Shown here piece after piece: positions 3,950 to 31,761 of a stretch of DNA of 41,239 nucleotides. Source of the stretch: a virus; IMG/VR virus record IMGVR_UViG_3300032046_000072, positions 1-41,239 of that record. One strand, written 5' to 3'. Position 1 is the first letter of the stretch, and each line of letters starts with the position of its first letter. The notes under the pieces were generated by a model. It did no database searches. It was not told the origin of the DNA and saw only the letters and a program-made list of their open reading frames with translations. Made by a program: the position numbers and the translations under genes.

Positions 3950-5105
3950 TTTTCCCTCCTTTGATTCTCAGAACATCCGTAAAGGTTGTAATCCTTGCCT
4001 GTTCCAAAACTCCGGCGTCAATCATCCCGTCCTTGATGGCCACTTGAATTTTCTTGAGATCCGGTTTTGCAATCAGCAACCACTTGTCGCCGAGCTGTTC
4101 GAGCAGGTAGTCCTCGTCCAGGATCGACTTTTTCATCGTGCCGTGGACGATCGCCTGGCCGTTTACGTCGATCTGCTCCAGCCCGGTCGCTTTGAAATAC
4201 CGCATTAGCACGGCGCGGAGGCGGTCGATTTCGTCCTCGACTTTCTTTTCCTCCGCTTTGAGCTCGATGTACCGGGCCGACGCACTTTCAAGTAATTCCT
4301 GCTCCGGCTTCTCAACCGTCTCATCGGCGATGAAGGCCGGGGCCTCCGCTTTGGGGATGCCCTCCCAACAATGGGCCTCATAGCGACAGTAGGAGCACTT
4401 GACCGAATCCCGCTCATGGGGACGCATGGGGCACTCGCCGGCCTGGATAGCCTTGTCGAGCGCCGTGAACCGCGCCTTGATCACGGCTACACGCTCAGCG
4501 TCGTAGTCCACGCGCCAGCCGCAAAGGGGCAGGGGGTCGGCTATCATGGCCCGGTCGGCATAGAGGATGAAACCGTAGTCGAGGACTTCCGATTGCCGGA
4601 CGCTCTTGGCCGAGCTTTCCTTGAGCCGGTCGATGTACCAGAGAATCTGATCGACCTCGTCCTGGGTCGGCTCCTCACTACCGAAATTGTAGGGATTCTT
4701 CGTCTTGATCTCGACGACGGCTATCCCCTTCTCCGTCTCGATGAAGCGATAGACGGCTGCGATGAAGTCGAGGCGGCCCGTTGCTTTGTGCGCCCAATCC
4801 TCGACGCCCATTTCGATATCGCGCCCCGCCTCAAGCATCCCCCTCCGCCGGGCCCTATCCTGGATATCATCATGGAGAAGGTTCCCCGCGCTGAACATCA
4901 TCAGCGTCTTGGCCGTGATCGGCCGCTTTTTCTCCGGGCAGGTGAAATCGTAGAAGGTCGTCCGGTCGCACTTCGAAACGTCGCTCATGTAGAAGTAGCC
5001 GCGTTTTTGATGATCTCGTTGGCCGGACCGGATTTTGAAATCATTCAGATAACTCTCGGTGATTTCCTGGATGAGAAAGTGATCGCTGTTTAATTTCTCA
5101 ATCAT
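3927..5105 (-). CDS. Cas4/RecB-like PD-(D/E)XK exonuclease with Fe-S cysteines
   Basis: A 392-residue protein. The motifs appear in the Cas4/AddB-type order: SDVSKCDR with Cys46, GNLLHD with His78, GRLDFI with Asp113, VVEIKTK with Glu132 and Lys134, and CSYCRYEAHC with Cys237, 240 and 246. One N-terminal plus three C-terminal cysteines is the arrangement that binds a 4Fe-4S cluster. After residue ~270 a coiled coil and a C-terminal domain follow, longer than minimal Cas4. ATG 5105 is chosen (GGAGAGG 5-6 nt upstream). A 5'-3' or ssDNA exonuclease role in phage recombination with the Gp3-like and coiled-coil neighbours is inferred. Confidence 0.85.
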   Translation of the reverse strand: MIEKLNSDHFLIQEITESYLNDFKIRSGQRDHQKRGYFYMSDVSKCDRTTFYDFTCPEKKRPITAKTLMMFSAGNLLHDDIQDRARRRGMLEAGRDIEMGVEDWAHKATGRLDFIAAVYRFIETEKGIAVVEIKTKNPYNFGSEEPTQDEVDQILWYIDRLKESSAKSVRQSEVLDYGFILYADRAMIADPLPLCGWRVDYDAERVAVIKARFTALDKAIQAGECPMRPHERDSVKCSYCRYEAHCWEGIPKAEAPAFIADETVEKPEQELLESASARYIELKAEEKKVEDEIDRLRAVLMRYFKATGLEQIDVNGQAIVHGTMKKSILDEDYLLEQLGDKWLLIAKPDLKKIQVAIKDGMIDAGVLEQARITTFTDVLRIKGGKNADPGTI

Positions 5106-5325
5106 GGAACCTCTCCCCCGCCTTGGCCTGCGCGTCAAATACGATCACCCCGACCTGGCCGTTGAACACGCTGTCGATGAAGGGCAAGACTTCGCCCGGT
5201 TTCTTGACTTCGTGTTCCCACTTGGTTAGAATGTCGATGAACTCGGGGCGGGTAAACGATACCCGCTTTTCTTCTTGCGTCCCTCGCGCTTCCCCCGAAG
5301 CCGGGGACGCTTCTGTTTTGTTCAT
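5098..5325 (-). CDS. Small hypothetical protein
   Basis: A 75-residue protein, acidic to neutral, without cysteines or membrane segments. The N-terminal ~20 residues are low complexity; the rest (FTRPEFIDILTKWEHEV, then PFIDSVFNGQVGVIVFDAQ) looks like a small alpha/beta fold. A good ribosome site (GGGAGAGGC) precedes ATG 5325, which overlaps the upstream stop by ATGA, and its own 3' end overlaps the exonuclease start. It is not recognised. Its tight coupling suggests it is co-expressed with the exonuclease. Confidence 0.5.
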   Translation of the reverse strand: MNKTEASPASGEARGTQEEKRVSFTRPEFIDILTKWEHEVKKPGEVLPFIDSVFNGQVGVIVFDAQAKAGERFHD

Positions 5326-6169: not shown

Positions 6170-6628
6170 TTAGTAGGCTTCCCTTTGGATCTCTTTGGCA
6201 ATTCCATGCGCAATTAAATCCCTCCACGGGACCGCCGCATTTGTTGTCTTTCCCCAACCTTTCGTTGATATCTTCAACGGATAGCCCCCGCCCTGCTTTC
6301 GCATGAAATCTTTTAGCTTGTGAAAATTCACCGCATAAAAACAAGTCGGGGTGCTATACAGAATATAATCAGCCTCACAATAATAGAGCCAGCCGGGGCT
6401 TTGCGTTTCCGTATCCTGCACAAGCTCAACAAGGAAATCCCCGTAGTCGCTACTTCTCGCCTTTTCTTCAAACTTGAATTTCTTTCCCGCAATCTCTACC
6501 AGGGAATTATAGCGTTTATTTTCCGGCCCGCTTATGCGCTTGAACGGCCAATTCTTTTTCTTGTAATAGGAATCGAAGAAATTTCGTTTCTTTTTCTCAA
6601 ATTCAAAAAATTCTTCTTTCGTTCTCAT
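6170..6628 (-). CDS. PD-(D/E)XK nuclease-like phage protein
   Basis: A 152-residue protein. The centre (FKFEEKARSSDYGDFLVEL at about 51-69, then PGWLYYCEADYILY) resembles a phage family usually placed in the PD-(D/E)XK nuclease superfamily, with E54/E55-x-K56 as candidate catalytic residues and nearby D64 and E68. The N-terminus is very rich in Lys, Phe and Glu. ATG 6628 overlaps the methyltransferase stop by ATGA. A nuclease activity is inferred; the substrate is unknown. Confidence 0.5.
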   Translation of the reverse strand: MRTKEEFFEFEKKKRNFFDSYYKKKNWPFKRISGPENKRYNSLVEIAGKKFKFEEKARSSDYGDFLVELVQDTETQSPGWLYYCEADYILYSTPTCFYAVNFHKLKDFMRKQGGGYPLKISTKGWGKTTNAAVPWRDLIAHGIAKEIQREAY

Positions 6629-7584
6629 TCATTGCCCCATGTATCCCAGCCGGACTTAATCTCTCCGCGATGGAATAGCTCTATCCTGTTTCCTTGAGTG
6701 TATAACTCATCTATGAGATCACGAAAATAAGGCGGCTTTTCTGAGTGCTTGGATGTACGCTCGATTGAAACGACAGAATCAATAAGCTTTTTGGAATCCG
6801 GGGTGCTCTGGCCACGTCCTGCAATCAAAAGGAATTCGTGCCGGACGGAATTATAATAGCCGAAATTGTGCTTGATTTTATCCCAGACAAAAGAGGTTTT
6901 ATATTCAAATCCCCATGCCCGGATAACATCGAAGGCTCGCTCCAGCTTGGGAGACGGAACCCAAAGAAATAAAACGGCATCCTTCTCGGCCATGCTCTGG
7001 ATTGGAAGGGCGCACAACGTCTCTATGGACATATTCGCATAGTGCTTTTCTATGTCGCCATATTGATGGGGAAGCCATTGGTCATATTCCCAGGGAGGGT
7101 CGGCGTAAATAATTCGGTATTGCTTGTCTCCCGGAAGGGCCGGGGCTTCTTTTGATTCCGTCCGGCGCTTATTCCTTCGGGCCTCATTGACGGCGGCCTT
7201 TTTTGACTTGCGACCCTCCTTGACTTCCTGGAAATCATCCTCGGGAAGGTCGGCTAATACCTGTGCCTCCGAGCTTTCCCGCTTCGTCAGCCCGAGGTCA
7301 GAGAGTGTAGGCTCAACCGGTTCCCCTGGAGTACCAGTTGGGAGATTTGGATTACCACCCTTCGCCCTCTCCGTCTCCTTCAGCATCTCCCCCAGCTTGC
7401 GCTCGGCCAGGAGCGCATAAGACTGAGCGCGTTGGACGGTTTCCTTGCCGAGTCCTTTTCTCTTGGCCCAGTCTGCCGCAGTTAGGGCCAGGTCTTTGAA
7501 TTCCTTAATTTCCTGGATCGTATTTGCCTTGGCCAGCATCTCCGAAGCGCGACTGATTATAGCAAGAGATGTTTCTTCAATCAT
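6625..7584 (-). CDS. MT-A70 family DNA N6-adenine methyltransferase
   Basis: A 319-residue protein. Catalytic motif DPPW is at residues 162-165 (IIYADPPWEYD), followed by FLWVPSPKLERAFDVIRAWGFEYKT-type downstream strands (motif continues past 20 residues) and LIAGRG, all typical of the MT-A70 fold. The N-terminal ~140 residues are helical and charged (SLAIISRASEMLAKANTI, ERKLGEML), an extension often seen on phage members and possibly used for DNA recognition. It probably methylates adenine in phage DNA to resist host restriction. Its start overlaps the small zinc gene by ATGA. Confidence 0.85.
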   Translation of the reverse strand: MIEETSLAIISRASEMLAKANTIQEIKEFKDLALTAADWAKRKGLGKETVQRAQSYALLAERKLGEMLKETERAKGGNPNLPTGTPGEPVEPTLSDLGLTKRESSEAQVLADLPEDDFQEVKEGRKSKKAAVNEARRNKRRTESKEAPALPGDKQYRIIYADPPWEYDQWLPHQYGDIEKHYANMSIETLCALPIQSMAEKDAVLFLWVPSPKLERAFDVIRAWGFEYKTSFVWDKIKHNFGYYNSVRHEFLLIAGRGQSTPDSKKLIDSVVSIERTSKHSEKPPYFRDLIDELYTQGNRIELFHRGEIKSGWDTWGNE

Positions 7585-19427: not shown

Positions 19428-21692
19428 TCATCTCCTCTTTTCGACTTCTCGGATTGCCTGCCGCCCTTCGACGCGAATAACCTTCGCCCGCTTCTCTATT
19501 TCACGGACAAGGTGTCGATTCTCAACACGGATTATGATCGGGTGAATGATGGCGGGTGCCCAGAAAACGTCTGCATCCTGGCCGGTGAGAACGCAAAGGC
19601 CGGACTCGGGATTGAGTATCGCCGCCTTCAAGAGTACGAGTGTATTACCTGTAATACCAAGAGTCCCAGGGCTGGTTGACAAGAGGCGGCCCAAGTAGGT
19701 GCCTGCCGCCTGTCCCGTCAAAAGATGCGCCCCGGCCTCGACATTGAAAATGGTGCCCCGCAAAAGTCCCGTGGATGGGGCAGAAAGGGTATAGAGGCCC
19801 GATTCTGTGACCACCGTCCATCCGCGAGAAAGGATTGCGGCTATTCCGGTGAGGGCGTGCGTACCCGTCTCTGTCGGTAAAACCCGAGCCTTGAGCAATC
19901 CGGCGTCCTGGCCGGTGAGCGCATACGGATTCGAGTCTGCGTAAATTCGCCGCCCCAGGAGCGTTGAAACATCCTGACCATAGAGCGAGGCCGATCCCGC
20001 CCCGGCAGAGATCATGCGACTCGCAATAGGTGAGGCGTCCGGCCCCACGACGGCATAGACTCCCGGTGAGATGGATATGAGATATGCGCCGCCCAAGACG
20101 AAGTTGACATCCTGGCCGGTAGAGAGATACGTTCCTGTGTTGGCGGCAATTTTCAGGCCGCGCAAGAGCCCCGCGTCCGCGCCCGCGAGAGTGTGAGCGC
20201 CCGAACTGGGAGAAACATAGAAATCCCTGATTGAGTCTATGCCGTTCACGGTATAGGCCCCATCTGCCGCCGTAATCGTAAAGGCGGCCCCAAGCTTAGT
20301 GAGCGTTACCGCCTGTCCGGTTGAGGCGTAGGCTCCCGGCGTAGGTGCAATCGTAAGGACATATTTCAGAGTAGCGTCTTGCCCGGTAACAAAATAAGTT
20401 CCCACCGCGGCGCTGATTCCTGCCGCCGTCATCAAGGTCAGGGTTACATCTGACCCGGAAACAGCATACGAACCAAGGTCTGCTTCTGTGGCTTGCCTGA
20501 GAGTCGAACTTTGTCCGGTCAGGGCATAGATTGCAGGTTGGACGATCATCCTGTAATGCGCTTCTGCATCCAAGCCGGTGACGGCATAAGTACCCGCCTC
20601 GACAGTCAGGGGGAATGACTTGCCTATCGCAATGGCATTTCCGGTAACGCCATAGACGCCGGGACTAACCGCCATAGTGCGAACAAACGCAACGCCCTGT
20701 CCGGTTGCGCTGTAAGTCCCAGCATCGACGGGGAGGGAATAGGAGACAGTTTTGCTTAATCCGACAGCTTGGCCACTGACTGTATATGTGCCATCCGTTG
20801 CCGCGATGGGGCGGCCCCAAGAAAGGCCAACCGCTTGTCCGGTGCTGGCATACGTACCAGCGCCGGCAGAGAGGACAAATTTCAGGGTTGCCGTCTGTCC
20901 GGTGACAGCATAAGTGCCAGCATCGACAGAAAGGGGGAATCCTCTATTGAGGCCAACGGCCTGACCGGTCAGCGCATAGGTTCCGGGATCAACAACTATG
21001 CTCCTAATAAATCCTATCGCCGAACCCGTTACGGCATAGGTCGTATCATTGGCAGCAACGGTAGTATTCAGCCATTGGATATTGCCTGAAAATTCTACCC
21101 AGGGAGCGAAGGCGTTGGCGTCGCTGTCGGTGTTGGGGCAGTCGTTGGCGTTATTGTCGCCGACGTTGATTGAGATGGAGCGGTTATTTGCTCCAGCTGT
21201 GCGATAGTAGCCGAGTTCGATGACCAGATAATCTCCCGTGCTTGCGGCCTGTTCGGTAAGTGCTGGAGGGCGCGTTTCGGCTGTTGTGTGTGCCCGCCGC
21301 GTCCCGAGGGTTGTCGTGAACTCGTAGGGCGATGAGGCGGAGTCGGAATGTGTCGAGGCCAGAAGCGTCGCCCGGTTTGCTCCGTTTGCCTGGATGATGT
21401 GAACGCCGAGGTTGAGCGTCGCATTGGCCTGGCCGTTATTCTCATAACACCGGACAACGGCCTCAACCGTGCCGCTAATATTCCCGGAAGCGAGAGGCCC
21501 GGCGACATAGCGCACTACTGAATTGGCGTAGGCCGAGCTCGTTCCCGTGACCGCATCTCTATTCGCAAAGCTACTGGATATTTTTGTCGTTACGCCCGCA
21601 TAGGTATAGTTATTGGCATGCGGGGCAACGAGCCAGTTTGTCGGCGTGACCCCCGCCGCGCCGCTGGATGGAATATAAATTCTCGTGGACAC
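19428..21692 (-). CDS. Large beta-repeat structural protein (adhesin or fibre)
   Basis: A 754-residue protein. Residues ~1-205 form a Ser/Thr/Asn-rich jelly-roll-like domain (VEAVVRCYENNGQANATLNL). Residues ~209-712 hold about 23 copies of a ~22-residue unit with consensus GTYAVTGQAVGL. The last ~40 residues contain two short charged repeats (IRVENRHLVREIEKR and IRVEGRQAIREVEKR). No enzyme motif is seen. Regular short beta repeats suggest a beta-solenoid or fibrous shaft exposed on the particle. It lies between the depolymerase-type genes and the head-tail adaptor. Confidence 0.6.
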   Translation of the reverse strand: MSTRIYIPSSGAAGVTPTNWLVAPHANNYTYAGVTTKISSSFANRDAVTGTSSAYANSVVRYVAGPLASGNISGTVEAVVRCYENNGQANATLNLGVHIIQANGANRATLLASTHSDSASSPYEFTTTLGTRRAHTTAETRPPALTEQAASTGDYLVIELGYYRTAGANNRSISINVGDNNANDCPNTDSDANAFAPWVEFSGNIQWLNTTVAANDTTYAVTGSAIGFIRSIVVDPGTYALTGQAVGLNRGFPLSVDAGTYAVTGQTATLKFVLSAGAGTYASTGQAVGLSWGRPIAATDGTYTVSGQAVGLSKTVSYSLPVDAGTYSATGQGVAFVRTMAVSPGVYGVTGNAIAIGKSFPLTVEAGTYAVTGLDAEAHYRMIVQPAIYALTGQSSTLRQATEADLGSYAVSGSDVTLTLMTAAGISAAVGTYFVTGQDATLKYVLTIAPTPGAYASTGQAVTLTKLGAAFTITAADGAYTVNGIDSIRDFYVSPSSGAHTLAGADAGLLRGLKIAANTGTYLSTGQDVNFVLGGAYLISISPGVYAVVGPDASPIASRMISAGAGSASLYGQDVSTLLGRRIYADSNPYALTGQDAGLLKARVLPTETGTHALTGIAAILSRGWTVVTESGLYTLSAPSTGLLRGTIFNVEAGAHLLTGQAAGTYLGRLLSTSPGTLGITGNTLVLLKAAILNPESGLCVLTGQDADVFWAPAIIHPIIIRVENRHLVREIEKRAKVIRVEGRQAIREVEKRR
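19557..21068 (-). repeat. About 23 tandem coding repeats (~66 nt each)
   Basis: The ~22-residue unit (hydrophobic strand, then GTYAVTGQ, then a short strand such as AVGLNRG) repeats with variation across this stretch. Divergence between copies is high in both DNA and protein, so it is old and not a recent tandem expansion. Confidence 0.75.
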
Positions 21693-23296: not shown

Positions 23297-23833
23297 TTAC
23301 CTTGTCCAGGTCAAATACATCGGTTCGCCGCCACCGGCTTCGGTGTAATTTGCATAAAGGGAATAGCGATAATCATATTGGGCCCAATTCGATGAAGGCG
23401 CTGTACCCGGAGGAAATGTATCAGGGTCATAGCTTTGTCGAACAGAAGCCCAGGCCGCCGCCCCTTCCCAAGCGGCATATTCGTCACCATATCCCTGGAA
23501 CATAAAACAAAGCCAATAATATGAATTTGCGGTTATGGTCCCAGAAATATTCATGCTGGTCCACTCACCATCAACGGTTGGTTTCGTTGCTTGTGTGATT
23601 GTGGCTTGATTATTTCCTACCAGAGTACCGGGATAAGCGCCAGAGCCGGGAGGGCTTGTTCCGGCATTGGTATATATTGCTACCTTCACCCACCGAGTTG
23701 CGTTGGCATCCCAACAACAGATTTTAACCTGTGTTAATGTTCCATTTGAATTAGCCTGATACCACGTTGCGTTCCAATATCCGGTCGGGGCATGATTGTT
23801 AGCCGCAATAGAACTATATCCAATAGTAGCCAT
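23297..23833 (-). CDS. Beta-sandwich-like surface protein
   Basis: A 178-residue protein, aromatic-rich (YWNATWYQANSNG, YYWLCFMFQGYGDEYAAW), with the spaced strands of a jelly-roll or carbohydrate-binding-like fold (VKVAIYTNAG, GEWTSMNISGTITAN). It sits between the two beta-helix genes and overlaps the second by 1 nt. A carbohydrate-binding role is inferred from composition and neighbours only. Confidence 0.5.
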   Translation of the reverse strand: MATIGYSSIAANNHAPTGYWNATWYQANSNGTLTQVKICCWDANATRWVKVAIYTNAGTSPPGSGAYPGTLVGNNQATITQATKPTVDGEWTSMNISGTITANSYYWLCFMFQGYGDEYAAWEGAAAWASVRQSYDPDTFPPGTAPSSNWAQYDYRYSLYANYTEAGGGEPMYLTWTR

Positions 23834-25146
23834 TATTTACCCCATCTCAATTTTATATAATTACTGCTCGCCTGATATTCATGTCCACCCATGTCGGGCG
23901 AGCCGCCCCTTTCGGTTTGCCAATAATCCTGAGTTACCCCAGCCAATACTTGAGCATGGTTTATTGCCGGAGAATCGGATAAAATCTTAAAATAGTTGGC
24001 TGTGAGCGTACCCGCTCCCGATGGGGGAGTCTTTGCCAATTTCGGATCGCCAACCACATCGCCGGTCCCCTGACAATTAGCCGGAGCGGTTTCTCCCCAA
24101 CAGTTATAACTAAAAGTCAATCCGCTAGTGGCCCCATTATAAATCATGGTAACGCTATCTTCTTGCAGGACAATGTTATTCTTAAATTGAGAATTAGAAG
24201 CCGCGCCCGCATAAATTAAAACATTGAAATCCCCACCGGAATCAGCATTGATAGATGTGTTATAGGCGATTAGGCAGTTAATCAGAACAGGTGGGTCAAG
24301 GGCCATATTGCGTTCCCCGCCCAAGAAGAAATTATTTACCACCGTGTTATCGGTAGATGCGGGGCTGGCTGTTTCATCTCCCATATAAAGCGCGGCCTGA
24401 GTATAATAACCCTGGATGGGATTGCCCGGAGTGAAATAACTGATGCTCCTTCTCAATGTCGAATGTTGGGTATCTGATAAATAGAAATTGATTTGATTGT
24501 TGTAGGCGATACAATCTTCTATCGTTGTATAATATGCCTCATAAGTTGAAATGCCCTCTCCCCAGTTATTCCAGGATGTACATCCTCTAATCGTAGAATT
24601 TGTTGGCGTTCGACAGATGCTTATCCCGGTACTCCATGACGATGGATGCTGGTAGTTTTCATTCACCATCGAATTACTATAGGCCCGACAGTTGTTGATT
24701 AAGCCGTAGGAGGCAGAATGGCTAATTCCCCCTTCCCAATTATGGTGTGTATAAATATTGTCAATGGTACAATAGTCAGCACCATCGGCAACTATGAGGC
24801 CATATCCACCGGAATATCTAATCTCGAGATTGCTTACCGTGTACCAATCTCCATTGATTTGCAGCAACGGATACATGTCAGCAGGGATCGCCCAATTATT
24901 CCCGTCGATAACAGGAGTTTCGGTAGGATAATTAGTTATGGTAATTGGATTGGCCTCGGTCCCATTGACCGACCATGTAGATACGGCCTGATACGTCCCA
25001 CCCCTAATTTGGACAGTATCCCCCGCCACTATGCTCGTGGCGGCATGGGCAAGGGTCAACCACGGCCCGATGGTTCCACTCACATAGGCTGGTTGAGTAC
25101 CATCCCAGGAGTTATTCCCGGCCGTAGAGACATAATAAGTTGCCAT
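23833..25146 (-). CDS. Second right-handed parallel beta-helix protein
   Basis: A 437-residue protein. It begins MATYYVSTAGNNSWDGTQ (the usual start of phage beta-helix proteins), with TVQIRGGTYQ, NPITITNYPTETPVIDGNN, CTIDNIYTHHNWEGGI, STIRGCTSWNNWGEGIST and TIEDCIAYNNQ as successive rungs, and an end SPAINHAQ...GGSPDMGGHEY typical of the family. It differs from the first beta-helix protein in sequence and may target a different glycan. Both end in a similar short basic tail (KLRWGK here, RMILAR there). Confidence 0.75.
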   Translation of the reverse strand: MATYYVSTAGNNSWDGTQPAYVSGTIGPWLTLAHAATSIVAGDTVQIRGGTYQAVSTWSVNGTEANPITITNYPTETPVIDGNNWAIPADMYPLLQINGDWYTVSNLEIRYSGGYGLIVADGADYCTIDNIYTHHNWEGGISHSASYGLINNCRAYSNSMVNENYQHPSSWSTGISICRTPTNSTIRGCTSWNNWGEGISTYEAYYTTIEDCIAYNNQINFYLSDTQHSTLRRSISYFTPGNPIQGYYTQAALYMGDETASPASTDNTVVNNFFLGGERNMALDPPVLINCLIAYNTSINADSGGDFNVLIYAGAASNSQFKNNIVLQEDSVTMIYNGATSGLTFSYNCWGETAPANCQGTGDVVGDPKLAKTPPSGAGTLTANYFKILSDSPAINHAQVLAGVTQDYWQTERGGSPDMGGHEYQASSNYIKLRWGK

Positions 25147-26064
25147 CTATTTCGCCATCTCTCCCGTGTAATAGTCGGCCAGCCGAATCAAGCCATCCTC
25201 CAGCGTCATCGTCGGCATCCACCCCAACTTGGCATTGGCCTCGCCCACCTGTGGCACAGGACGATTCTTCTTAATCTCCATCTCCCTTGCCGATCTCTCG
25301 ATTCCATTGAAGATGATCGGCGACTTGGAATGTGTCACCTTAATGACAAGCTCTGCCAAGTCCACTATAGAGATGGGATACGGGTATCCAAACTCCACCG
25401 GGCCAGGGAAGATGTCCGAATCCATGTAGGCCATAAGCCCGTCGAGCATATCGTCCACATAGCAGAACGAATCCTTCTGGAGTCCCGTCCCCACGATTTT
25501 CAGGGGATCGCCCTTGATTGCCCTCATCACAAACTGGGGTACGACCCTTGAATCATTCGTCGCCATCTTCGGCCCATAGGTGTTATAGAGCCGCGCTATC
25601 TTTACCCTTGTCCCCGCCTCATAATACCGGAGACACAATTCCTCCCCCCGGCGTTTCCCCCCGACGTAGCAGGAATGAGGACTCATTATCTCAAGCGCCT
25701 CCGTGACGCGGATTGAGGACGTGAAGAGCATGGTCGATCTCTGCTCCGTCGCCATCTTCAGCAGGTTCTCCGTCCCTGCGATATTCGCCTCAAGCGTCCC
25801 CTCCGGGTCCTTCTGGTACGCGCCCGGGGCCGTAGGCGAAGCAAGGTGATAAATCTGGTCAATGTCAATCTCCGGTATCGGCCCGCAGGATGTGTTGCCG
25901 AGAATCAGATGGAAGCGGTTATTGGAATAGAGCTCGCCTATGTTATTGGATGAGCCGGTTGAAAAGTTATCCATGCAATAGACCAGATCCCCGCGGTCAA
26001 GAAGTCTCTCGCAGAGATTAGACCCCAGGAACCCCGCTCCGCCTGTTACGAGAATCCTACTCAT
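25147..26064 (-). CDS. NAD-dependent SDR, UDP-glucuronate decarboxylase/epimerase-like
   Basis: A 305-residue protein. The Rossmann motif VTGGAGFLGSN lies at the N-terminus, catalytic Tyr-x3-Lys in SCYVGGKRRGEE, and the family blocks RLYNTYGPKM and KDSFCYVDDMLDGL. These place it with extended SDR sugar-nucleotide enzymes, closest in pattern to UDP-glucuronate decarboxylases (UDP-xylose synthesis). The usual TSTSEVYG block is altered to LFTSSIRVTEA, so the substrate may differ. ATG 26064 (overlap ATGA) is preferred to a longer start at 26094. It is the last cassette gene before the beta-helix proteins. Confidence 0.8.
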   Translation of the reverse strand: MSRILVTGGAGFLGSNLCERLLDRGDLVYCMDNFSTGSSNNIGELYSNNRFHLILGNTSCGPIPEIDIDQIYHLASPTAPGAYQKDPEGTLEANIAGTENLLKMATEQRSTMLFTSSIRVTEALEIMSPHSCYVGGKRRGEELCLRYYEAGTRVKIARLYNTYGPKMATNDSRVVPQFVMRAIKGDPLKIVGTGLQKDSFCYVDDMLDGLMAYMDSDIFPGPVEFGYPYPISIVDLAELVIKVTHSKSPIIFNGIERSAREMEIKKNRPVPQVGEANAKLGWMPTMTLEDGLIRLADYYTGEMAK

Positions 26065-26237
26065 ATCCGCATCTCCCGTCCGTCTCGATACCAAATTTCA
26101 AGAAGGTTTTTATAATCCGCACTCCATACCGAAACAGATACTTCCTTTTTCTCCTCCGGCGAAAGTGAATTCTCCCAAGATGTTACATATTTCAATTCTT
26201 CATCCGTAACTATCCGGGGCCATTCATTGAGTCTCAT
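26061..26237 (-). CDS. Small unknown cassette protein
   Basis: A 58-residue acidic protein (MRLNEWPRIVTDEELKYV ... YKNLLEIWYRDGREMRI). ATG 26237 gives an ATGA overlap with the radical SAM stop, and its own end overlaps the SDR start by ATGA. It is not recognised. Its place between radical SAM and SDR genes could make it a partner or a peptide substrate, but nothing in it proves that. Confidence 0.45.
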   Translation of the reverse strand: MRLNEWPRIVTDEELKYVTSWENSLSPEEKKEVSVSVWSADYKNLLEIWYRDGREMRI

Positions 26238-27199
26238 GTCGGCCATGTCTCCTGTATGATGTCCATGAGTCCCTTTACCGGCAGGCATTCCCCGCCTTTT
26301 TCCTTGTCCCACTTCTTGAATAGGTGAGGCGTCCAGAACCGCTGATCGTTTATGCTCAGGTGAATCCCGTAACGATGGGCGATAGCGTTCCTGTAGTCCG
26401 TGTCCTTGTACCGCCCGAGCGGAGCCTGGGCCATCCTGGTATCCGTGTTGGTGAAGTCGTAAATCTCAAATTTCCCCCGTTCGATCTTCTTCGAGAATCC
26501 CTTTAGGCGATCATAGTTTTTTGGTGAGATATCGTCTATCCCCTCGCACGATGAGCGCCGCCGTATCTCAGCCGGGAATCCACAGCGCGGGCAGAACATC
26601 TCCATCTGCTCGCCGAAGTCGGCCGGGATTCTCCACCACCAACCCGGCTCGACTGGCCAGCCCCTCCTTCCCTCCTCCTCGAATAGCATACTCATCGAAC
26701 CGGCGATCTCGCAGAACCATGCGCCGGACGGGAAAATGGACGCCGACCAGCTCATCTGTGCCCAACATTGGTCGATGGCGATCCACATGAGATCCTTATT
26801 TTCAGCAACTTCCTCGATGCCTACCAGGGGGGGGTGATGAAAGATGTCGGGCCGCGAGTGGTCATTGATGAAGATATGCTTGAACGTCCGGCAGATAGCC
26901 TCCCGGTAATGCTCCTTGCCCTCGGGGAGTGTCGTCCATAGGCCCAGGCGCTCCGGGGGGATACGTTCGTGGGCGTAGTTGCACATCTCCTCGAATTGAG
27001 GATGCAAGAGGGGATCGCCCCCCTGGAAGCCTGTCATCTTGGGATAATCTACCATCGAATCAATCGCCCGTTTAAACTCGTCCATTGTCATATAGAACGG
27101 CTTGCGGTGTCCGCAGAACCGGGTACAGTTGCTACAACTGTTGCGACAGACGTTTGTCGTCTCCACTTGGACCGTATCTTGACTAACGATGTTACGCAT
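26234..27199 (-). CDS. Radical SAM protein of unknown reaction
   Basis: A 321-residue protein. The CxxxCxxC cluster is present as CRNSCSNC (Cys18, Cys22, Cys25), then GFQGGDPLLHPQF supplies the SAM-binding GGxP-like motif. A conserved middle (CWAQMSWSASIFPSG, FCEIAGSMSML, GWPVEPGWWW) and CPRCG give further cysteines that could hold an auxiliary cluster. This subfamily is often found beside glycosyltransferases. It starts inside the end of the endonuclease VII-like gene with GGAGATG ahead of it. The reaction is unknown. Confidence 0.8.
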   Translation of the reverse strand: MRNIVSQDTVQVETTNVCRNSCSNCTRFCGHRKPFYMTMDEFKRAIDSMVDYPKMTGFQGGDPLLHPQFEEMCNYAHERIPPERLGLWTTLPEGKEHYREAICRTFKHIFINDHSRPDIFHHPPLVGIEEVAENKDLMWIAIDQCWAQMSWSASIFPSGAWFCEIAGSMSMLFEEEGRRGWPVEPGWWWRIPADFGEQMEMFCPRCGFPAEIRRRSSCEGIDDISPKNYDRLKGFSKKIERGKFEIYDFTNTDTRMAQAPLGRYKDTDYRNAIAHRYGIHLSINDQRFWTPHLFKKWDKEKGGECLPVKGLMDIIQETWPT

Positions 27200-27992
27200 T
27201 GCCCCTCATCTCCATCGCCTTCGTATGTTCTTCCTCACACATCCTGCGCAATTTTTCTGGCATCTCTGCTGACCACCCGCAAGAATATTTTGCCAAATAT
27301 TCGATCGCGGCCTCCATGACATAGGTTAGATCCCTAAAATAACCAATTCCGGAATTACAGTTATTGCACAATATTCCCCGTGTCTGCCCCGAGAAATGGT
27401 CATGGTCAACTACCGGCCCTTTGGCATTGAATTCATCGGTTTTGCAGATGGCACACCGCCCTCCCTGCTTTTCCAATAGAGTATCAAACTCGGCTTGCGT
27501 CAATCCATAAAGTTTATTTAACCGACGATTCCTAATCTCTTCTTTGTGTGCCGCATGACGGACCTTTTTTTTAGCAGAAATCATTTTTTTATTTACAATT
27601 CGATAGGCCTTCTGATAAGCCAATAACCTTTCTCTGTTGGCAAGATAGCGCGCCCTATCTTTTGCCCTCTTCTCCGGTCTATGGGCAAGACGATACGCTT
27701 TCTCTTGTTCTGAAATTTCTGGCCGATGTGCAAGGCGATAAACCCTGTCCTTAGATCTAATTTCTTCAAGATGTGCAAGGCGATAAGCCTTGTTGTTTGC
27801 CTTGATTTTTTCCTTATGGGAAACGCGATAAGCCTTTTCCTGATCCTTATGTGAGGCATAATAAGCCTTGTGCTTGGCTTTCAACTCCTCTCTATGCGCA
27901 GCACAGTAGGCCCTCCCCTTAACCCTTATTTCCTCTCGATGCGCAAGCCGATAGGCTTCATTGTAGGCCTTCCTTGCTTCTAACTTTCTCAT
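27192..27992 (-). CDS. Endonuclease VII-like HNH protein with a 10-repeat N-terminal arm
   Basis: A 266-residue protein. The C-terminal nuclease (Cys180, Cys183, DHDH 196-199, Cys209, Cys212; CNNCNSGIGYFRD) matches the recombination endonuclease VII family. Residues ~13-156 are about ten 15-residue repeats of the form AYRLAHREEIRVKGR (45-nt DNA units), likely a helical DNA-binding arm. The AT content looks higher than in its neighbours. It lies between glycosyltransferase and radical SAM genes, with ATGA to the former, and is probably a mobile-type insertion, not a packaging resolvase. Confidence 0.75.
   Translation of the reverse strand: MRKLEARKAYNEAYRLAHREEIRVKGRAYCAAHREELKAKHKAYYASHKDQEKAYRVSHKEKIKANNKAYRLAHLEEIRSKDRVYRLAHRPEISEQEKAYRLAHRPEKRAKDRARYLANRERLLAYQKAYRIVNKKMISAKKKVRHAAHKEEIRNRRLNKLYGLTQAEFDTLLEKQGGRCAICKTDEFNAKGPVVDHDHFSGQTRGILCNNCNSGIGYFRDLTYVMEAAIEYLAKYSCGWSAEMPEKLRRMCEEEHTKAMEMRGNA
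27555..27962 (-). repeat. Tandem 45-nt coding repeats
   Basis: A run of about ten 45-nt units encodes the AYRLAH-type repeats of the endonuclease. Short DNA words such as GGCGATAAGCC recur at the same phase, so the units are more alike than coding need alone would require. Confidence 0.7.
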
Positions 27993-28768
27993 TGGGCAAT
28001 TTCCGGCTCTATCTTGGGTTCTTCAACCGTCGGCGTCGGGGGCGCCAGCGCCAGCTTGACCGACTCCGGCAACTCAAAGCCCCAAACTTTGTAAATTTCT
28101 GCCATCTTGAATATCTTCTCAACCTTCGGGATCGCATAGACATGGTAGAACATCTGGGCGTTCTCCACTTCCCACTCTTTCATCACCGTCTTTATCATCT
28201 TGAACTTGAGGCCGTACTTGGCGATGTTTCTTCCGATGAGGAAATCCTCTACGAGACGTATTGGGATGACACCGCGTTTCAGCTCATCGGCGGTCGGGAA
28301 AATCATGTCCTCGACCTCAGCCGGCGTCATGTCGTGGCATGGCTCCATCATTTCGATACACCAATCGGAACAGATGCAGCACCATGTGGCCGATCCGATA
28401 TGCCGCCCATCCCGCATATAGAACCTATCCTTCTTGAACCTGAACGGAGAGAAGTCGGCCCCATTGTGAAGGCAAGTGTCCTTTGACACGATCTCCGTGA
28501 AGTCCGGCGTGTTGGGATGAATCAGAGCATCGCAGTCAAAGAAGATACTCCACTCATCCTCTCGCGCACGGGCCAAGTCATAGACCTGGAACTTCTCGTA
28601 GTTCGCGGGCCAACCTTCCGCCTCGAATTTTCTCTCTTTGATCTCGCAGAACTCGGCACCGCATTTCACGGCGTAGTGCTTTAGCAGCGGGTACGTCATG
28701 TCGGTGATTTCCCTGTAATCCTCGGGATTGAGGTTCAGGGTGTAGAGCGTTTTTTTGGGCTTAAACAT
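27989..28768 (-). CDS. GT-A-like glycosyltransferase
   Basis: A 259-residue protein. YEKFQVYDLARAREDEWSI runs into FFDCDALIHPN, which carries the D-x-D-type metal/nucleotide-sugar motif (DCDA), and later blocks (HIGSATWCCICSDW, EDFLIGRNIAKYGL) fit this class of small GT-A enzymes. The C-terminus is a Pro/Glu-rich tail. No membrane segment. It overlaps the methyltransferase gene by 8 nt and the endonuclease by ATGA. It likely moves a sugar to a virion protein or another acceptor; the acceptor is not known. Confidence 0.65.
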   Translation of the reverse strand: MFKPKKTLYTLNLNPEDYREITDMTYPLLKHYAVKCGAEFCEIKERKFEAEGWPANYEKFQVYDLARAREDEWSIFFDCDALIHPNTPDFTEIVSKDTCLHNGADFSPFRFKKDRFYMRDGRHIGSATWCCICSDWCIEMMEPCHDMTPAEVEDMIFPTADELKRGVIPIRLVEDFLIGRNIAKYGLKFKMIKTVMKEWEVENAQMFYHVYAIPKVEKIFKMAEIYKVWGFELPESVKLALAPPTPTVEEPKIEPEIAQ

Positions 28769-29279
28769 TGATTATCCAGATACCTCCATATATGGAATGA
28801 TTGTTATAGCCGAGTTCACTGAGTGCCGCCCTTACCGACCCCATCCCTTCATCATGGCCGCAAATGAGTCGCCGGCACTTGGGCTTCCAGGCCAGGATAT
28901 CCGCGATGACCGCTTCCTTGATATGGCATCCGTCGATAAAAACCATGTCTACCGAATTGTCGGCAAAGAACTGGGCCGCCTCGATGCTCCCCATCCTCAT
29001 CACCACGAGATTTCTGAAATGCCCCACATTTACCCAGAAGTCGATGAAGATATCATGGTCAAGTGCCTCTCTGTGCGCGCCGTCCAATTCATCCGGGTTG
29101 CCCTTGAAATGATCCACCGCAAACACCGGGCCGGGGCAACCGGAAAGGAGCGCATGGGTAGAGCGCCCCTTCCAGCTCCCTATTTCCACGATAGACCTCA
29201 TTTCTTGTGCCCGTTCATGGAGCCAGCGCAAGGCATCGTCGTCCATCCAGCCCTGAATATTGGGCGTCTCATAGGCCAT
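28761..29279 (-). CDS. Class I SAM-dependent methyltransferase
   Basis: A 172-residue protein. IVEIGSWKGRST is motif I of the Rossmann methyltransferase fold, VFAVDHFKG is motif II and VDMVFIDGCHIKEAV is the motif IV/post region, as in the Methyltransf_24 type. It is short and soluble. It is the first enzyme gene of the cassette, so it may methylate a sugar or protein made by its neighbours. The acceptor is inferred only from context. Confidence 0.75.
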   Translation of the reverse strand: MAYETPNIQGWMDDDALRWLHERAQEMRSIVEIGSWKGRSTHALLSGCPGPVFAVDHFKGNPDELDGAHREALDHDIFIDFWVNVGHFRNLVVMRMGSIEAAQFFADNSVDMVFIDGCHIKEAVIADILAWKPKCRRLICGHDEGMGSVRAALSELGYNNHSIYGGIWIINV

Positions 29280-29287
29280 GCGGCCTC

Positions 29288-29461
29288 CTATTTATTCGCC
29301 GAACTCAAATCGATGACTATCGGCTTAACCGTCATCCGGTAGTGATGCCTCCCGCAAATCTTACACCGCATGGATTTAACCAGCGCGGTCGTCAAATCCG
29401 AGCAGGTTTCCAAAACCAAATTCTCGGGCACCTTGCAGCAATCTCCGTTATCACTCTCCAT
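29288..29461 (-). CDS. Small cysteine-containing protein
   Basis: A 57-residue protein with CC near residue 7, ETC, and CKIC in MRCKICGRHHYR; the CxxC plus HH may bind zinc. ATG 29461 has GAGG 6-7 nt upstream; a longer frame to 29563 overlaps the decoration-type gene and has no ribosome site. Unknown function; between the head genes and the cassette. Confidence 0.45.
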   Translation of the reverse strand: MESDNGDCCKVPENLVLETCSDLTTALVKSMRCKICGRHHYRMTVKPIVIDLSSANK

Positions 29462-29469
29462 AACCTGCC

Positions 29470-29898
29470 TCAAGTGATCGAAAAGACGACTTTGTTGGCC
29501 GGGAAGTCCACGGTGAATGACTCGCCGTTGTTGCAGTTGATGGATGAACCATAATTCCACCAACCGATGAGCGCACAGTTGTTAGCGTTGGCGTCCGAGT
29601 TAGCGTTGAGCATAACGACATATTGGAACGGTCCGAAGTTTCCTCCGTTTGCCGTCCAGGTGACATCGTTATTGGCCGTCAGGGTAGCCGTACCCGTAGC
29701 GTTGGCCCAGTTTGCGAAAATCTCCGTCTGGTTATAGTTAGCAACTGGAGTCAGTGGAGCGCAATCACTCCTGATGAAGTCGGCCGTATTGCTCGGGGTC
29801 ACGGCGGTGAGATAGATGTGAATCTTATCGGTGGATAGATTGTGCTTCTCCAGCCCCAAGTCATAGACGAAACAGTCAAACTTGTTATAGGCAGCCAT
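29470..29898 (-). CDS. Capsid-associated or fibre-type structural protein
   Basis: A 142-residue protein of a family common near capsid genes: MAAYNKFDCFVYDLGLEKHN, TAVTPSNTADF, DVTWTANGGNFGPFQYVVML, GWWNYGSSINCNNGESFTVD. Beta-rich, with no enzyme motif. It follows the decoration and capsid genes, overlapping the upstream small gene by 1 nt. A head decoration or short-fibre role is likely. Confidence 0.6.
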   Translation of the reverse strand: MAAYNKFDCFVYDLGLEKHNLSTDKIHIYLTAVTPSNTADFIRSDCAPLTPVANYNQTEIFANWANATGTATLTANNDVTWTANGGNFGPFQYVVMLNANSDANANNCALIGWWNYGSSINCNNGESFTVDFPANKVVFSIT

Positions 29899-30107
29899 TA
29901 CCTTTTTCTCCTTTTTGTTTTTTGAATCGGAGCGACTTCCTTTATCTCCGGCGCCGTCTCCATGTCCTTGTCCTCGATGGCTATGCCCGCCCTGAGCAGG
30001 TCGAGCGCCAGGACTTCGGGTAGATCATATTTCTGGCCCGGTTTATAGAGATCGACGTGGATTCCGTCCGTGCTGGTCTGGAAAAATCTGACCATCCGAA
30101 CCTTCAT
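29898..30107 (-). CDS. Small conserved head-region protein
   Basis: A 69-residue protein. The N-terminal part (VDLYKPGQKYDLPEVLALDLLRAGIA) recurs in many phage head-tail regions; the C-terminus is Lys/Arg-rich. GGAGGAG precedes ATG 30107. The function is unknown. Confidence 0.55.
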   Translation of the reverse strand: MKVRMVRFFQTSTDGIHVDLYKPGQKYDLPEVLALDLLRAGIAIEDKDMETAPEIKEVAPIQKTKRRKR

Positions 30108-30125
30108 CGCTCCTCCTTGAAATCG

Positions 30126-30148
30126 GGCAGGGGAAGAAGCGCCCTGCC
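30126..30148 (-). other. GC-rich intercistronic hairpin
   Basis: GGCAGGG and CCCTGCC (7 bp) with a 9-nt loop lie in the 64-nt gap between two structural genes. A partly competing pairing, GGGGAAG/CTTCCCC, overlaps it. No U-tract follows. It may stop RNA decay or tune downstream expression after the abundant capsid messages. Confidence 0.4.
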
Positions 30149-30171
30149 TCTTCCCCGTACCCTACTGTTCA

Positions 30172-30594
30172 CTATCTAACCTGAATGGGTTTTCCTCTGA
30201 TGATCGTGGCCGTAACGGGAAGCGAGACCGCCCCTGCCGTCGCCTGGAACTCAATCCGCACATACCGCTTTGTTCCGATGTAGGAACGGACGATAGTGCA
30301 GTTGGCGTTGGCGTTGGCGTCAATCAGATAGGTGTTGTTCCCGCCGACGAGGTCCGTGTCCGCAATCGCTGTGAACGTGGAATTGTCGGATGACTCAACG
30401 AACGCGATGGTAGCCTTATTCGAGGCACCGGCCAGCCCACCACTCGCCCCAACCTGGGCAATAAGCAGTGCCTGGCGGTAACCCAGGAGGTCAGTCCCGG
30501 TGCCCGATCCATCAACGTTCGAGGAGGTCATTGTCTGCGGCTTAGCAAGAGTGTTGGCCGCTGCCTCATGATAGAAGTCTAAAATTTGCGCCAT
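30172..30594 (-). CDS. Head decoration-type protein
   Basis: A 140-residue beta-rich protein (KATIAFVESSDNSTFTAI, KRYVRIEFQATAGAVSL) directly after the major capsid gene, the usual place for decoration or stabilising proteins. It starts MAQILDFYHEAAANTLA. No catalytic motif. The call rests on position and fold type. Confidence 0.6.
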   Translation of the reverse strand: MAQILDFYHEAAANTLAKPQTMTSSNVDGSGTGTDLLGYRQALLIAQVGASGGLAGASNKATIAFVESSDNSTFTAIADTDLVGGNNTYLIDANANANCTIVRSYIGTKRYVRIEFQATAGAVSLPVTATIIRGKPIQVR

Positions 30595-30606: not shown

Positions 30607-31761
30607 TTACGCCGTCATCTTCATCTTGTAGATGGCTTCAGGCAGAACGACCTTCCCGCCGACCCGCTTACGCGCATGGAACCGGACAGCGCCGGCCAAC
30701 GATGCCGAATAAGGATCGCGCATGATCTGGAAGCCCACGCGGTCAACGATCTGATAGCCGCGCCGGAAGTCTCCGAACAGAATTGGGAATGCGGCATTCG
30801 CCATAGCGGGCATGTCATAGGCTTCCAGGACCGGCACGCCGAGGATCGTCCATCGCGGAGTGTCGCCAAGGCGCTGGAGGAGGTAATCGTTCTGGTTGTT
30901 CTTGAGCTTGGCGCAATAGGCCATCGTCGCCCGCGCCATTAAGAAGCGAGCATCCGTGATGTAGCCGGATTTTGGCGCGAAGTAAAGGGTGAGAAGTCCG
31001 TCCGCTGTCACGTTATTCGCGTCGCCTCCGGCCGTGTTGGCGATATTGCCATCTGCCAAAATGCCGATCGGTTTGTAGGTCGCATTGCCGGAGATGAAAG
31101 CGTTGGCCTCAAGAACACCGAACCGGGTAGCAAGTTCATTCTGGAAGAACGATTCGAGGTCAACCGCCGAATCCTCAAGGAGCTGCTGCGTGATGTCGAG
31201 ATAAACACGGGCTTCGTGAACCGGGATTCGTTCTACGCCGAACGTCACCTGGTTAGCCTCAGCTGCATTAGCCGTCTCACCCACCCAGTTGGCCGTTGCG
31301 TTAGCCGTCTGCGTCATAACCTGGTACGATTCGGTTCCGATTGTGATAACTGAGGCAATCTGGCGAACCGGGCTGGATTCGGTGATCTGCGTAAGAATAC
31401 CGGCTGCGATAGTCGGGGGAGCCGTGACATACCCGCCGGCCGTGTCATCGCGGACGCGATAGGCGGTTTTCTCCTCCATCTCAAGGTCTTTTGATCCGAT
31501 GCCCTTTCTGAGAAAGTCCATGAACGCCTTATGCTCGGGAGTCTTTTCCTTGGAATCGTAGCTCGGGGTCGCCATCTTCGTGACTTTGACTTCCAGCTGA
31601 TCGAGTGCCTTCTGCACTTTCTCGATGGTCGGCTTAATCTCTTTGTCGATCAATTCTTTGTCGAGCTTCTTATCCTCCAGAACCTTCTGTTGATCCCGGA
31701 TAGCGTTAATGCCTTTGGACAATTCGTCAGACAGGGTTTTGAGTGTTTCTTCGTTTGTCAA
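30607..31761 (-). CDS. HK97-fold major capsid protein
   Basis: A 384-residue protein. Residues ~1-65 are a charged coiled coil (delta/scaffold domain). Then RDDTAGGYVTAPPTIAAGI, SSPVRQIASVITIG and WVGETANAAEANQVTFG mark the HK97-fold start, and LGVPVLEAYDMP with FGDFRRGYQIVDR marks the P/A-domain end. The protease gene directly upstream fits cleavage of the delta domain. It lies in the standard order portal, protease, capsid. Confidence 0.95.
   Translation of the reverse strand: MTNEETLKTLSDELSKGINAIRDQQKVLEDKKLDKELIDKEIKPTIEKVQKALDQLEVKVTKMATPSYDSKEKTPEHKAFMDFLRKGIGSKDLEMEEKTAYRVRDDTAGGYVTAPPTIAAGILTQITESSPVRQIASVITIGTESYQVMTQTANATANWVGETANAAEANQVTFGVERIPVHEARVYLDITQQLLEDSAVDLESFFQNELATRFGVLEANAFISGNATYKPIGILADGNIANTAGGDANNVTADGLLTLYFAPKSGYITDARFLMARATMAYCAKLKNNQNDYLLQRLGDTPRWTILGVPVLEAYDMPAMANAAFPILFGDFRRGYQIVDRVGFQIMRDPYSASLAGAVRFHARKRVGGKVVLPEAIYKMKMTA

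Follow-up and report, generated by a model that had tools for sequence, protein, structure and literature searches.

The conserved core of the putative late-region sugar cassette studied here is a pair of genes, encoding a predicted GT-A-fold glycosyltransferase (GT) and a radical SAM enzyme, rather than a five-gene pathway. Our favored reading, to which we assign a probability of roughly 0.55, is that the pair glycosylates a virion protein and that the sugar is tailored by radical chemistry, with both the acceptor and the chemistry being predictions. The pair was analyzed in a 41,239 nt stretch of viral DNA (the window) and in related viral and bacterial loci.

The cassette and its setting in the window

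The minus strand from 29279 to 25147 carries six genes in a row, encoding a methyltransferase (MT), the GT, an Endonuclease VII, the radical SAM enzyme, a 58-aa orphan and a short-chain dehydrogenase/reductase (SDR) (Table 1). The first-pass annotation, made from the sequence alone, had described a translationally coupled run of five genes. The coupling was borne out, with consecutive overlaps of 8, 4, 8, 4 and 4 bp from MT to SDR, but the run comprises six genes because the Endonuclease VII gene between the GT and the radical SAM gene had not been listed. Its SAM methyltransferase, DxD-type glycosyltransferase and radical SAM assignments were all confirmed. The start codon of the beta-helix gene immediately follows the SDR stop codon. 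The GC content is 0.52–0.55 for the enzyme genes, 0.45 for Endonuclease VII and 0.42 for the 58-aa ORF, and a scan for promoters and terminators gave matches not above chance.

Table 1. Genes of the cassette and its flanks in the window
Feature	Position	Strand	Evidence
MT24-type SAM methyltransferase, 172 aa	28761..29279	-	Pfam Methyltransf_24 PF13578, 9e-14
GT-A-fold glycosyltransferase (predicted), 259 aa, DCD (DxD) at residues 78-80	27989..28768	-	fold model and Foldseek
Endonuclease VII-type nuclease, 266 aa	27192..27992	-	PF02945, 2e-22; PHROG endonuclease VII
Radical SAM enzyme (predicted Twitch type), 321 aa	26234..27199	-	PF04055 above cut-off
58-aa ORF	26061..26237	-	open reading frame, without family match
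Extended SDR, epimerase-type, 305 aa	25147..26064	-	PF01370, 5e-37
CxxC (zinc-ribbon-like) protein, 57 aa, directly upstream of MT	29288..29461	-	relatives at the same position in 4 related phages
Small late protein, 142 aa, adjoining the cassette	29470..29898	-	relatives in other loci
Major capsid protein (HK97 type), upstream flank	30607..31761	-	PF05065, 1e-68
Beta-helix protein (spike-like), downstream flank	23833..25146	-	PF13229

The cassette is located between the capsid gene, with the small genes downstream of it, and the beta-helix gene. It had been placed between head decoration and beta-helix genes; the capsid and beta-helix flanks stand, whereas the "head decoration" label is positional, the region 29470-30594 having yielded no noteworthy match in Pfam or PHROG. 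Directly upstream of the MT, the CxxC protein, whose gene was missing from the earlier annotation, has relatives in loci L003, L005/L102, L006/L101 and L014, and may belong to the locus. In L003, L005/L102, L006/L101, L011, L014 and L104, a relative of the 142-aa protein adjoins either the cassette or the GT.

Two members of the run appear to be extraneous. Endonuclease VII scored 79.4 bits against a PF02945 gathering score of 23.6 and is absent from this place in all other loci; it is probably a homing passenger outside the function, and its occurrence in a single locus led us to reject it as a pathway member. The 58-aa ORF, reported earlier as a 58-residue unknown, is present but has no Pfam, PHROG or NCBIfam match; because it has no relative among the fetched viral loci, its membership of the system is unsupported, and, as an orphan, it was also discarded as a candidate peptide precursor.

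Co-occurrence of the GT and radical SAM genes

Viral relatives of the radical SAM enzyme were gathered without use of the GT, and those with at least 45% identity represent 43 distinct viral loci. A GT gene lies within 4.5 kb of the radical SAM gene in 41 of these; in one of the remaining two, the GT is slightly beyond that distance, and the other begins at a contig edge. Among 20 more distant radical SAM relatives, none has the GT nearby, and counted by contig, co-occurrence was 40/40 versus 0/9. The GT-linked viral radical SAMs form one clade, and the sequence distances of the two proteins are correlated to a degree reached in none of 2000 permutations, whereas GT and MT distances show no correlation (r = 0.05). 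The first-pass annotation had named homologues scattered without co-occurrence as evidence against a joint system; for the GT and the radical SAM enzyme, we observed the opposite. The pair is flanked by head, adaptor, portal and tail genes from unrelated phages.

The gene content of the loci, including GC-rich ones, was determined by six-frame profile searches, with an MT profile built from MT domains only. Of 71 viral radical SAM loci, a count that includes near-duplicates, 20 have an SDR nearby and 19 an MT. The constant part of the five-gene run proposed earlier is the GT and radical SAM pair; the SDR and MT are optional, shuffled in order and at times fused, and the 58-mer is dispensable. 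The MT is fused to the radical SAM enzyme in L103 and to the GT in L012/L013, and a contig-edge ORF in L130, detected with the same profile, is a further possible MT fusion. All known viral carriers are uncultured contigs. A search of isolate phages gave no match, a plasmid search gave one short match, a single-sequence radical SAM search of viral contigs returned only a chance peptide match (L002), and the capsid query found no relative.

Sister-clade bacterial radical SAMs adjoin GT41-type genes, with a flagellin gene about 4.6 kb downstream in two of three cases. More generally, bacterial relatives reside in surface-glycan and flagellin islands together with GT2, epimerase, HisF/HisH and methyltransferase genes, flagellin-linked loci being a minority (4/76). 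A close radical SAM relative lies near a flagellin gene in the cultured bacterium Trichlorobacter thiogenes, and a distant GT relative occurs in a marine virus within a long run of nucleotide-sugar genes.

Predicted activities of the enzymes

The AF2 model of the GT (pLDDT 95.5, pTM 0.90; one row of the alignment, from an annotated phage record, was left out) adopts a GT-A fold, with Foldseek matches to GT-A enzymes, and the protein carries the DxD motif, so that it combines the two defining features of a GT-A glycosyltransferase. D78, D80 and H209 are invariant among 56 sequences. The best PDB matches by Foldseek were the PBCV-1 capsid glycosyltransferase, followed by glycoprotein GTs, with TM-scores that express likeness at the fold level only. 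The GT matches no Pfam or NCBIfam family and gave no PDB sequence match of note; its relation to the A064R-type and GT34 families is one of fold resemblance, with no detectable sequence homology.

Members of the radical SAM superfamily carry a CxxxCxxC cluster motif and a GGE-type SAM motif within a partial TIM barrel. The radical SAM enzyme of the window has the CxxxCxxC motif, with C18, C22 and C25 invariant among 80 sequences, and a SAM motif that reads GGDP in the window and GGEP in relatives. In the same 80 sequences, the auxiliary cysteines C145, C163, C203 and C206 are also invariant, and their CX17C and CX2C spacings are constant. A Twitch domain is defined by a cysteine on each side of a beta-hairpin and two cysteines after a helix, which together hold one auxiliary cluster (PMC6231123). 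The residue layout, with C145, a hairpin at 153-161, C163, a helix at 192-202 and then C203 and C206, conforms to this definition and predicts a cluster site. The nearest fold is SpeY (TM-score 0.37, which is low, for a model of moderate quality, pLDDT 69.7), and the nearest profile match is BtrN. Both share with the window enzyme the CxxxCxxC core and the four auxiliary cysteines, but they are only 14-18% identical to it and are antibiotic-biosynthesis enzymes rather than phage ones, and within this subfamily similarity does not give function (PMC6231123). By analogy, the enzyme is a candidate sugar dehydrogenase of the Twitch type, which offers a possible reaction for the radical step that had been left unexplained.

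The earlier description of the SDR as UDP-glucuronate-decarboxylase-like is correct insofar as UDP-glucuronate decarboxylases (UXS) are its closest solved relatives over the full length (human UXS1, 5e-56), resembling it in SDR fold and overall sequence. The UXS catalytic set includes a Glu beside Ser/Thr, Tyr and Lys. In the cassette SDR, Tyr133 and Lys137 are invariant and the Ser is kept, but the position of the catalytic Glu of the STSE motif is occupied by Arg in the window and by Arg, Lys, Asn, His or Asp among cassette relatives, whereas a bystander SDR in L150 retains the Glu (STSE). Because this expected residue is missing, a decarboxylase assignment is unsupported, and we rejected the SDR as a true UXS. 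It is an optional accessory. The MT, which scored 52.6 bits against the Methyltransf_24 gathering score of 26.3, is likewise optional and is a candidate sugar O-methyltransferase.

Proposed function and relation to known systems

The data establish which genes are present, how they co-occur, the modeled fold of the GT, the conservation of the cluster residues and the placement among structural genes; we infer a substrate, an order of steps, an acceptor and a benefit. Late in infection, the GT and the radical SAM enzyme would act in the cytoplasm to decorate a structural protein of the virion. A capsid, decoration, tail or spike protein, repeated in the virion, would receive a sugar from a nucleotide-activated donor through the GT-A enzyme, which might alternatively lengthen a sugar already present there. 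The substrate of the Twitch enzyme would be either the attached sugar or the donor; the enzyme would abstract hydrogen from one of the sugar carbons and most probably turn a hydroxyl into a ketone, the reaction that SpeY and BtrN carry out on their own substrates. In the window version, the SDR might then reduce or epimerize the product, or else supply the donor, and the MT24 enzyme might O-methylate it, with Endonuclease VII and the 58-mer as presumed passengers. The 142-aa protein, the major capsid protein and the beta-helix protein are acceptor candidates; no acceptor conserved in all loci was found. The benefit to the phage would most likely be masking or stabilization of the particle. The general idea of the first-pass annotation, in which virion proteins receive a sugar made or tailored by the phage, has the best support, although its five-gene, decarboxylase and 58-mer details do not hold.

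The same genes could instead act on the host surface, altering a glycan there (LPS, capsule, S-layer or flagellar sugar) and so blocking superinfection or changing a receptor, with the late-region position due to chance. The surface-glycan and flagellin islands of the bacterial relatives and the nucleotide-sugar neighborhood of the marine virus GT are compatible with such a role, but unrelated phages repeatedly carry the pair in the midst of their head and tail genes, and by fold the GT is closest to glycosyltransferases of proteins or capsids. Moreover, all cassette proteins are soluble by hydropathy, none having the membrane-type hydrophobic stretch sought as a sign of a serotype-conversion (gtr) cassette, and no flippase or membrane transferase is adjacent in the window. 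We therefore consider this alternative less likely. It is improbable, in our judgment, that the radical SAM enzyme changes a side chain or the backbone of a virion peptide in a RiPP-like manner, with the GT glycosylating the modified residue: Twitch/SPASM enzymes often modify peptides (PMC6231123) and the peptide epimerase YydG is among the weak profile matches, but the 321-aa protein begins at the radical SAM core, so that a separate N-terminal domain for peptide recognition would not fit, its closest relatives by fold and sequence use small cyclitol or sugar-like substrates, and no conserved precursor-like peptide accompanies it, given that the 58-mer is an orphan.

According to the part of the literature covered, some viruses encode GTs that glycosylate DNA (Pyle et al. 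2024, in PMC12619734), yet glycosylation of hypermodified phage DNA by this module seems quite improbable. It is disfavored because none of 40 pair-carrying phage records, many of them fragments, has a gene of the thymidylate-synthase/hydroxymethylase family (PF00303), compared with 9 of 14 control genomes; in addition, the genes are grouped with structural rather than replication genes, and SDR and MT accessories are typical of free-sugar pathways. If unrelated moron genes had simply come together by chance, without a shared role, this would account for the variability of the SDR, MT and endonucleases at this place and for the uncorrelated GT and MT distances, but hardly for a pair of single origin that is kept in unrelated phages with correlated distances, or for MT fusions to both core genes; for the GT and the radical SAM enzyme, chance assembly is strongly disfavored and, in our view, very improbable, but it may apply to the 58-mer and the endonuclease.

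Returning to virion glycosylation, we tentatively suggest a more specific and wider version, in which a phage clade has a self-contained system whose Twitch enzyme directly edits the virion-attached sugar installed by its partner GT. The product would be a keto sugar, or one edited by radical chemistry in another way, that stays bound to the protein and is finished by the optional SDR and MT, a chemistry possibly shared with bacterial flagellin glycosylation. The flagellin glycosylation islands of Trichlorobacter and Desulfuromonadaceae (L027, L043), with a function deduced from gene content, have sister-clade radical SAMs with protein-GT-type genes as neighbors, and L043 also contains an MT24 gene, as the window cassette does; however, their partner GTs are GT41/GT4 enzymes with TPR, whereas the phage partner is GT-A. 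The searched literature contains no description of a virus that edits the sugars of its own coat by radical chemistry, and judged against that literature such chemistry on the glycans of virions or flagella would be new. The predictions can be tested in these phages and in cultured Trichlorobacter thiogenes.

Phage virion glycosylation is known from few cases, and the present analysis adds a gene pair, so far without a name, that recurs in over 40 distinct environmental viral loci and combines a GT-A family without a Pfam entry with a radical SAM enzyme. Mycobacteriophage GTs glycosylate capsid and tail proteins (Freeman et al. 2023, in PMC12619734 and PMC11256854); the consulted portions of these sources report no radical SAM partner, and for the phages described here a virion glycan is a prediction. 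Among solved structures, the fold closest to that of the window GT belongs to A064R of the chlorovirus PBCV-1, a capsid N-glycan enzyme with two GT domains and a methyltransferase in one protein (PMC9614988). A064R comes from a eukaryotic virus, has no detectable sequence relation to the GT and, in the sections of that report consulted, is named with no radical SAM or SDR partner, but it joins a GT-A domain to a sugar methyltransferase, an arrangement comparable to the GT-MT fusion of L012/L013.

Gene content and setting of the cassette

The window is a virus record 41,239 bases long, whose minus strand carries in order the terminase, portal, prohead protease and HK97-type capsid genes, small genes, the cassette and beta-helix genes. 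The cassette comprises six genes at 29279-25147, with overlaps of 8, 4, 8, 4 and 4 bp between consecutive genes. All five genes listed in the first-pass annotation are present, but the list lacked Endonuclease VII (PF02945, 2e-22) and a 57-aa CxxC protein encoded upstream of the methyltransferase (MT), which has relatives in the same position in loci L003, L005/L102, L006/L101 and L014 (each paired identifier denotes one contig).

Features of the window and of two related loci
Feature	Locus	Coordinates
MT24 methyltransferase (MT)	window	28761-29279
GT-A-like glycosyltransferase (GT)	window	27989-28768
Endonuclease VII, between GT and radical SAM	window	27192-27992
Radical SAM enzyme (rSAM)	window	26234-27199
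58-aa ORF	window	26061-26237
SDR	window	25147-26064
754-aa protein, many short repeats around TYAVTGQ	window	19428-21692
MT-A70 methyltransferase, Gp3-like recombination-directionality-factor-type protein and PD-(D/E)XK/Gp157-like gene, well away from the cassette	window	6625-7584 and 2909-5138
ORF reading as GIY-YIG-type endonuclease, between GT and radical SAM (read from sequence, no profile match)	L126	2512-3321
Endonuclease-like fragment, between GT and radical SAM (read from sequence, no profile match)	L130	862-1119

Endonuclease VII occupies this place in the window only, and we take it to be a homing passenger; the 58-aa ORF, with no relatives among the viral loci, is taken to be dispensable. 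GC content is 0.45 and 0.42 for these two genes versus 0.52-0.55 for the four enzymes. In different phages, three dissimilar endonuclease-type genes lie between GT and radical SAM, as if the interval were a homing target. About a dozen loci have relatives of the 754-aa repeat protein close to the cassette.

Linkage of the glycosyltransferase and the radical SAM enzyme

A GT alignment of three sequences recovered 21 viral loci, nine of which also encode the radical SAM enzyme (L005-L009, L017-L020), several with SDR and MT. The radical SAM alignment, searched without using GT, yielded 70 viral loci and 76 loci in bacterial or archaeal assemblies. Among 43 distinct viral loci with a radical SAM enzyme at least 45% identical to that of the window, GT lies within 4.5 kb in 41; in the two exceptions, GT is about 5 kb upstream (L110) or the locus starts at a contig edge (L125). 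Near more distant radical SAM genes (<45% identity), GT was found in 0 of 20 viral loci, and whole contigs gave the same division (40/40 records, window included, versus 0/9 distant ones). Distances of the two proteins are correlated (Mantel r 0.56, 0/2000 permutations), and in the IQ-TREE radical SAM tree the GT-linked members form a single clade (support 96/88), in which the sole unlinked row is the truncated L125. L105 and L010 each have two GT copies, flanking radical SAM-SDR on either side in L105. A second viral radical SAM set (L144-L163, L167; 33-43% identity) is without GT and includes some ORFs of 597-998 aa.

Of 71 viral loci, near-duplicates counted, 20 have SDR and 19 have MT near radical SAM, in the orders MT-GT-rSAM-SDR (L101, L102, L104), GT-MT-rSAM-SDR (L107), GT-SDR-rSAM (L120), SDR-GT-rSAM (L109, L134) and GT-SDR-MT-rSAM (L112); MT is fused to radical SAM in L103 (489 aa). 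Matches among 148 proteins encoded beside the cassettes include P22 coat (6), SU10 adaptor (6), HK97 capsids, several families of major head proteins, prohead protease, lambda- and Mu-type portals and tail fibre assembly. The pair is thus a repeated feature of the structural gene region in dissimilar phages.

Sister to the phage clade (support 99/96) are L027 (Trichlorobacter thiogenes), L043 (Desulfuromonadaceae) and L028 (Scalindua), in all three of which radical SAM adjoins GT41-like genes of the protein O-GlcNAc-transferase type. A flagellin gene lies about 4.6 kb downstream in L027 and L043, and an MT24 methyltransferase gene directly upstream in L043. Flagellin also occurs within the more distant L038 and L045, and overall in 4 of 76 bacterial loci. 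Short bacterial forms mostly neighbour GT2, TPR, epimerase, HisF/HisH and methyltransferase genes. Longer bacterial relatives (430-620 aa; L040, L042, L049, L074 and others) combine the radical SAM domain with a C-terminal part, which in L049 weakly matches PglD_N.

Predicted activities and competing readings

Across 80 sequences of the radical SAM enzyme, three core and four auxiliary cysteines are invariant, as are the CX17C and CX2C spacings. Its structure model, of moderate confidence (pLDDT 69.7, pTM 0.75), places a hairpin between auxiliary cysteines 1 and 2 and a helix ahead of the last two, as PMC6231123 describes for Twitch domains, of which that of BtrN is fully ligated. The closest solved fold is SpeY (E 1.6e-6, TM 0.37) and the closest profile BtrN (4e-4), both dehydrogenases; this supports, rather than proves, oxidation of a sugar hydroxyl; PMC6231123 cautions that similarity does not reveal function in this subfamily. 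The SDR was initially read as UDP-glucuronate-decarboxylase-like, and its closest solved relatives are indeed the human enzymes, over the full length, with the Ser-Tyr-Lys triad retained. However, at the position of the catalytic Glu the window has Arg and its cassette relatives have Arg, Lys, Asn, His or Asp, and a decarboxylase role therefore lacks support; that the SDR acts as an epimerase or a ketoreductase is our guess. A bystander SDR in L150 retains STSE.

We favor, with a probability of about 0.55, glycosylation of virion proteins: in the late-phase cytoplasm, GT would modify a repeated virion protein, radical SAM would oxidise the sugar, and SDR and MT, where present, would adjust it. 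One candidate acceptor is the upstream 142-aa protein, absent from most loci. Modification of the host surface instead of the virion seems unlikely, and that of a peptide, improbable. We give less credence still to DNA as the target, a reading against which stands the absence of a PF00303 gene from all 40 records, and very little to a chance assembly of the genes.

Comparison with known glycosylation systems

Phage virion glycosylation is already known (Freeman et al. 2023, as cited in PMC12619734 and PMC11256854); in the literature covered on radical SAM enzymes with phage or flagellin glycosylation, outside which most subscription papers fall, no such pair is described. GT falls into neither a Pfam nor an NCBIfam family and has no significant PHROG match. 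Among isolate phages, only one uncultured marine virus (L004, AG-345-E08) has a relative of GT, a distant one (32%), within a long nucleotide-sugar gene run. Read from sequence, the genes packed into this run are GT-like, dioxygenase-like, dTDP-glucose-dehydratase-like and nucleotidyltransferase/kinase-like.

The AlphaFold2 model of GT, built from 56 sequences with invariant D78, D80 and H209, is confident (pLDDT 95.5, pTM 0.90). Its top four PDB matches are all the PBCV-1 major-capsid glycosyltransferase (best E 1.5e-6, TM 0.58 by target); collagen galactosyltransferase and UGGT come next. Among viral proteins it best matches one of 638 residues, the same length as the chlorovirus enzyme A064R. 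PMC9614988 describes domain 1 of A064R as a retaining rhamnosyltransferase that depends on Mn, and its third domain as methylating the terminal sugar; this union of glycosyltransferase and methyltransferase parallels the 413-aa phage MT-GT fusion in L012/L013.
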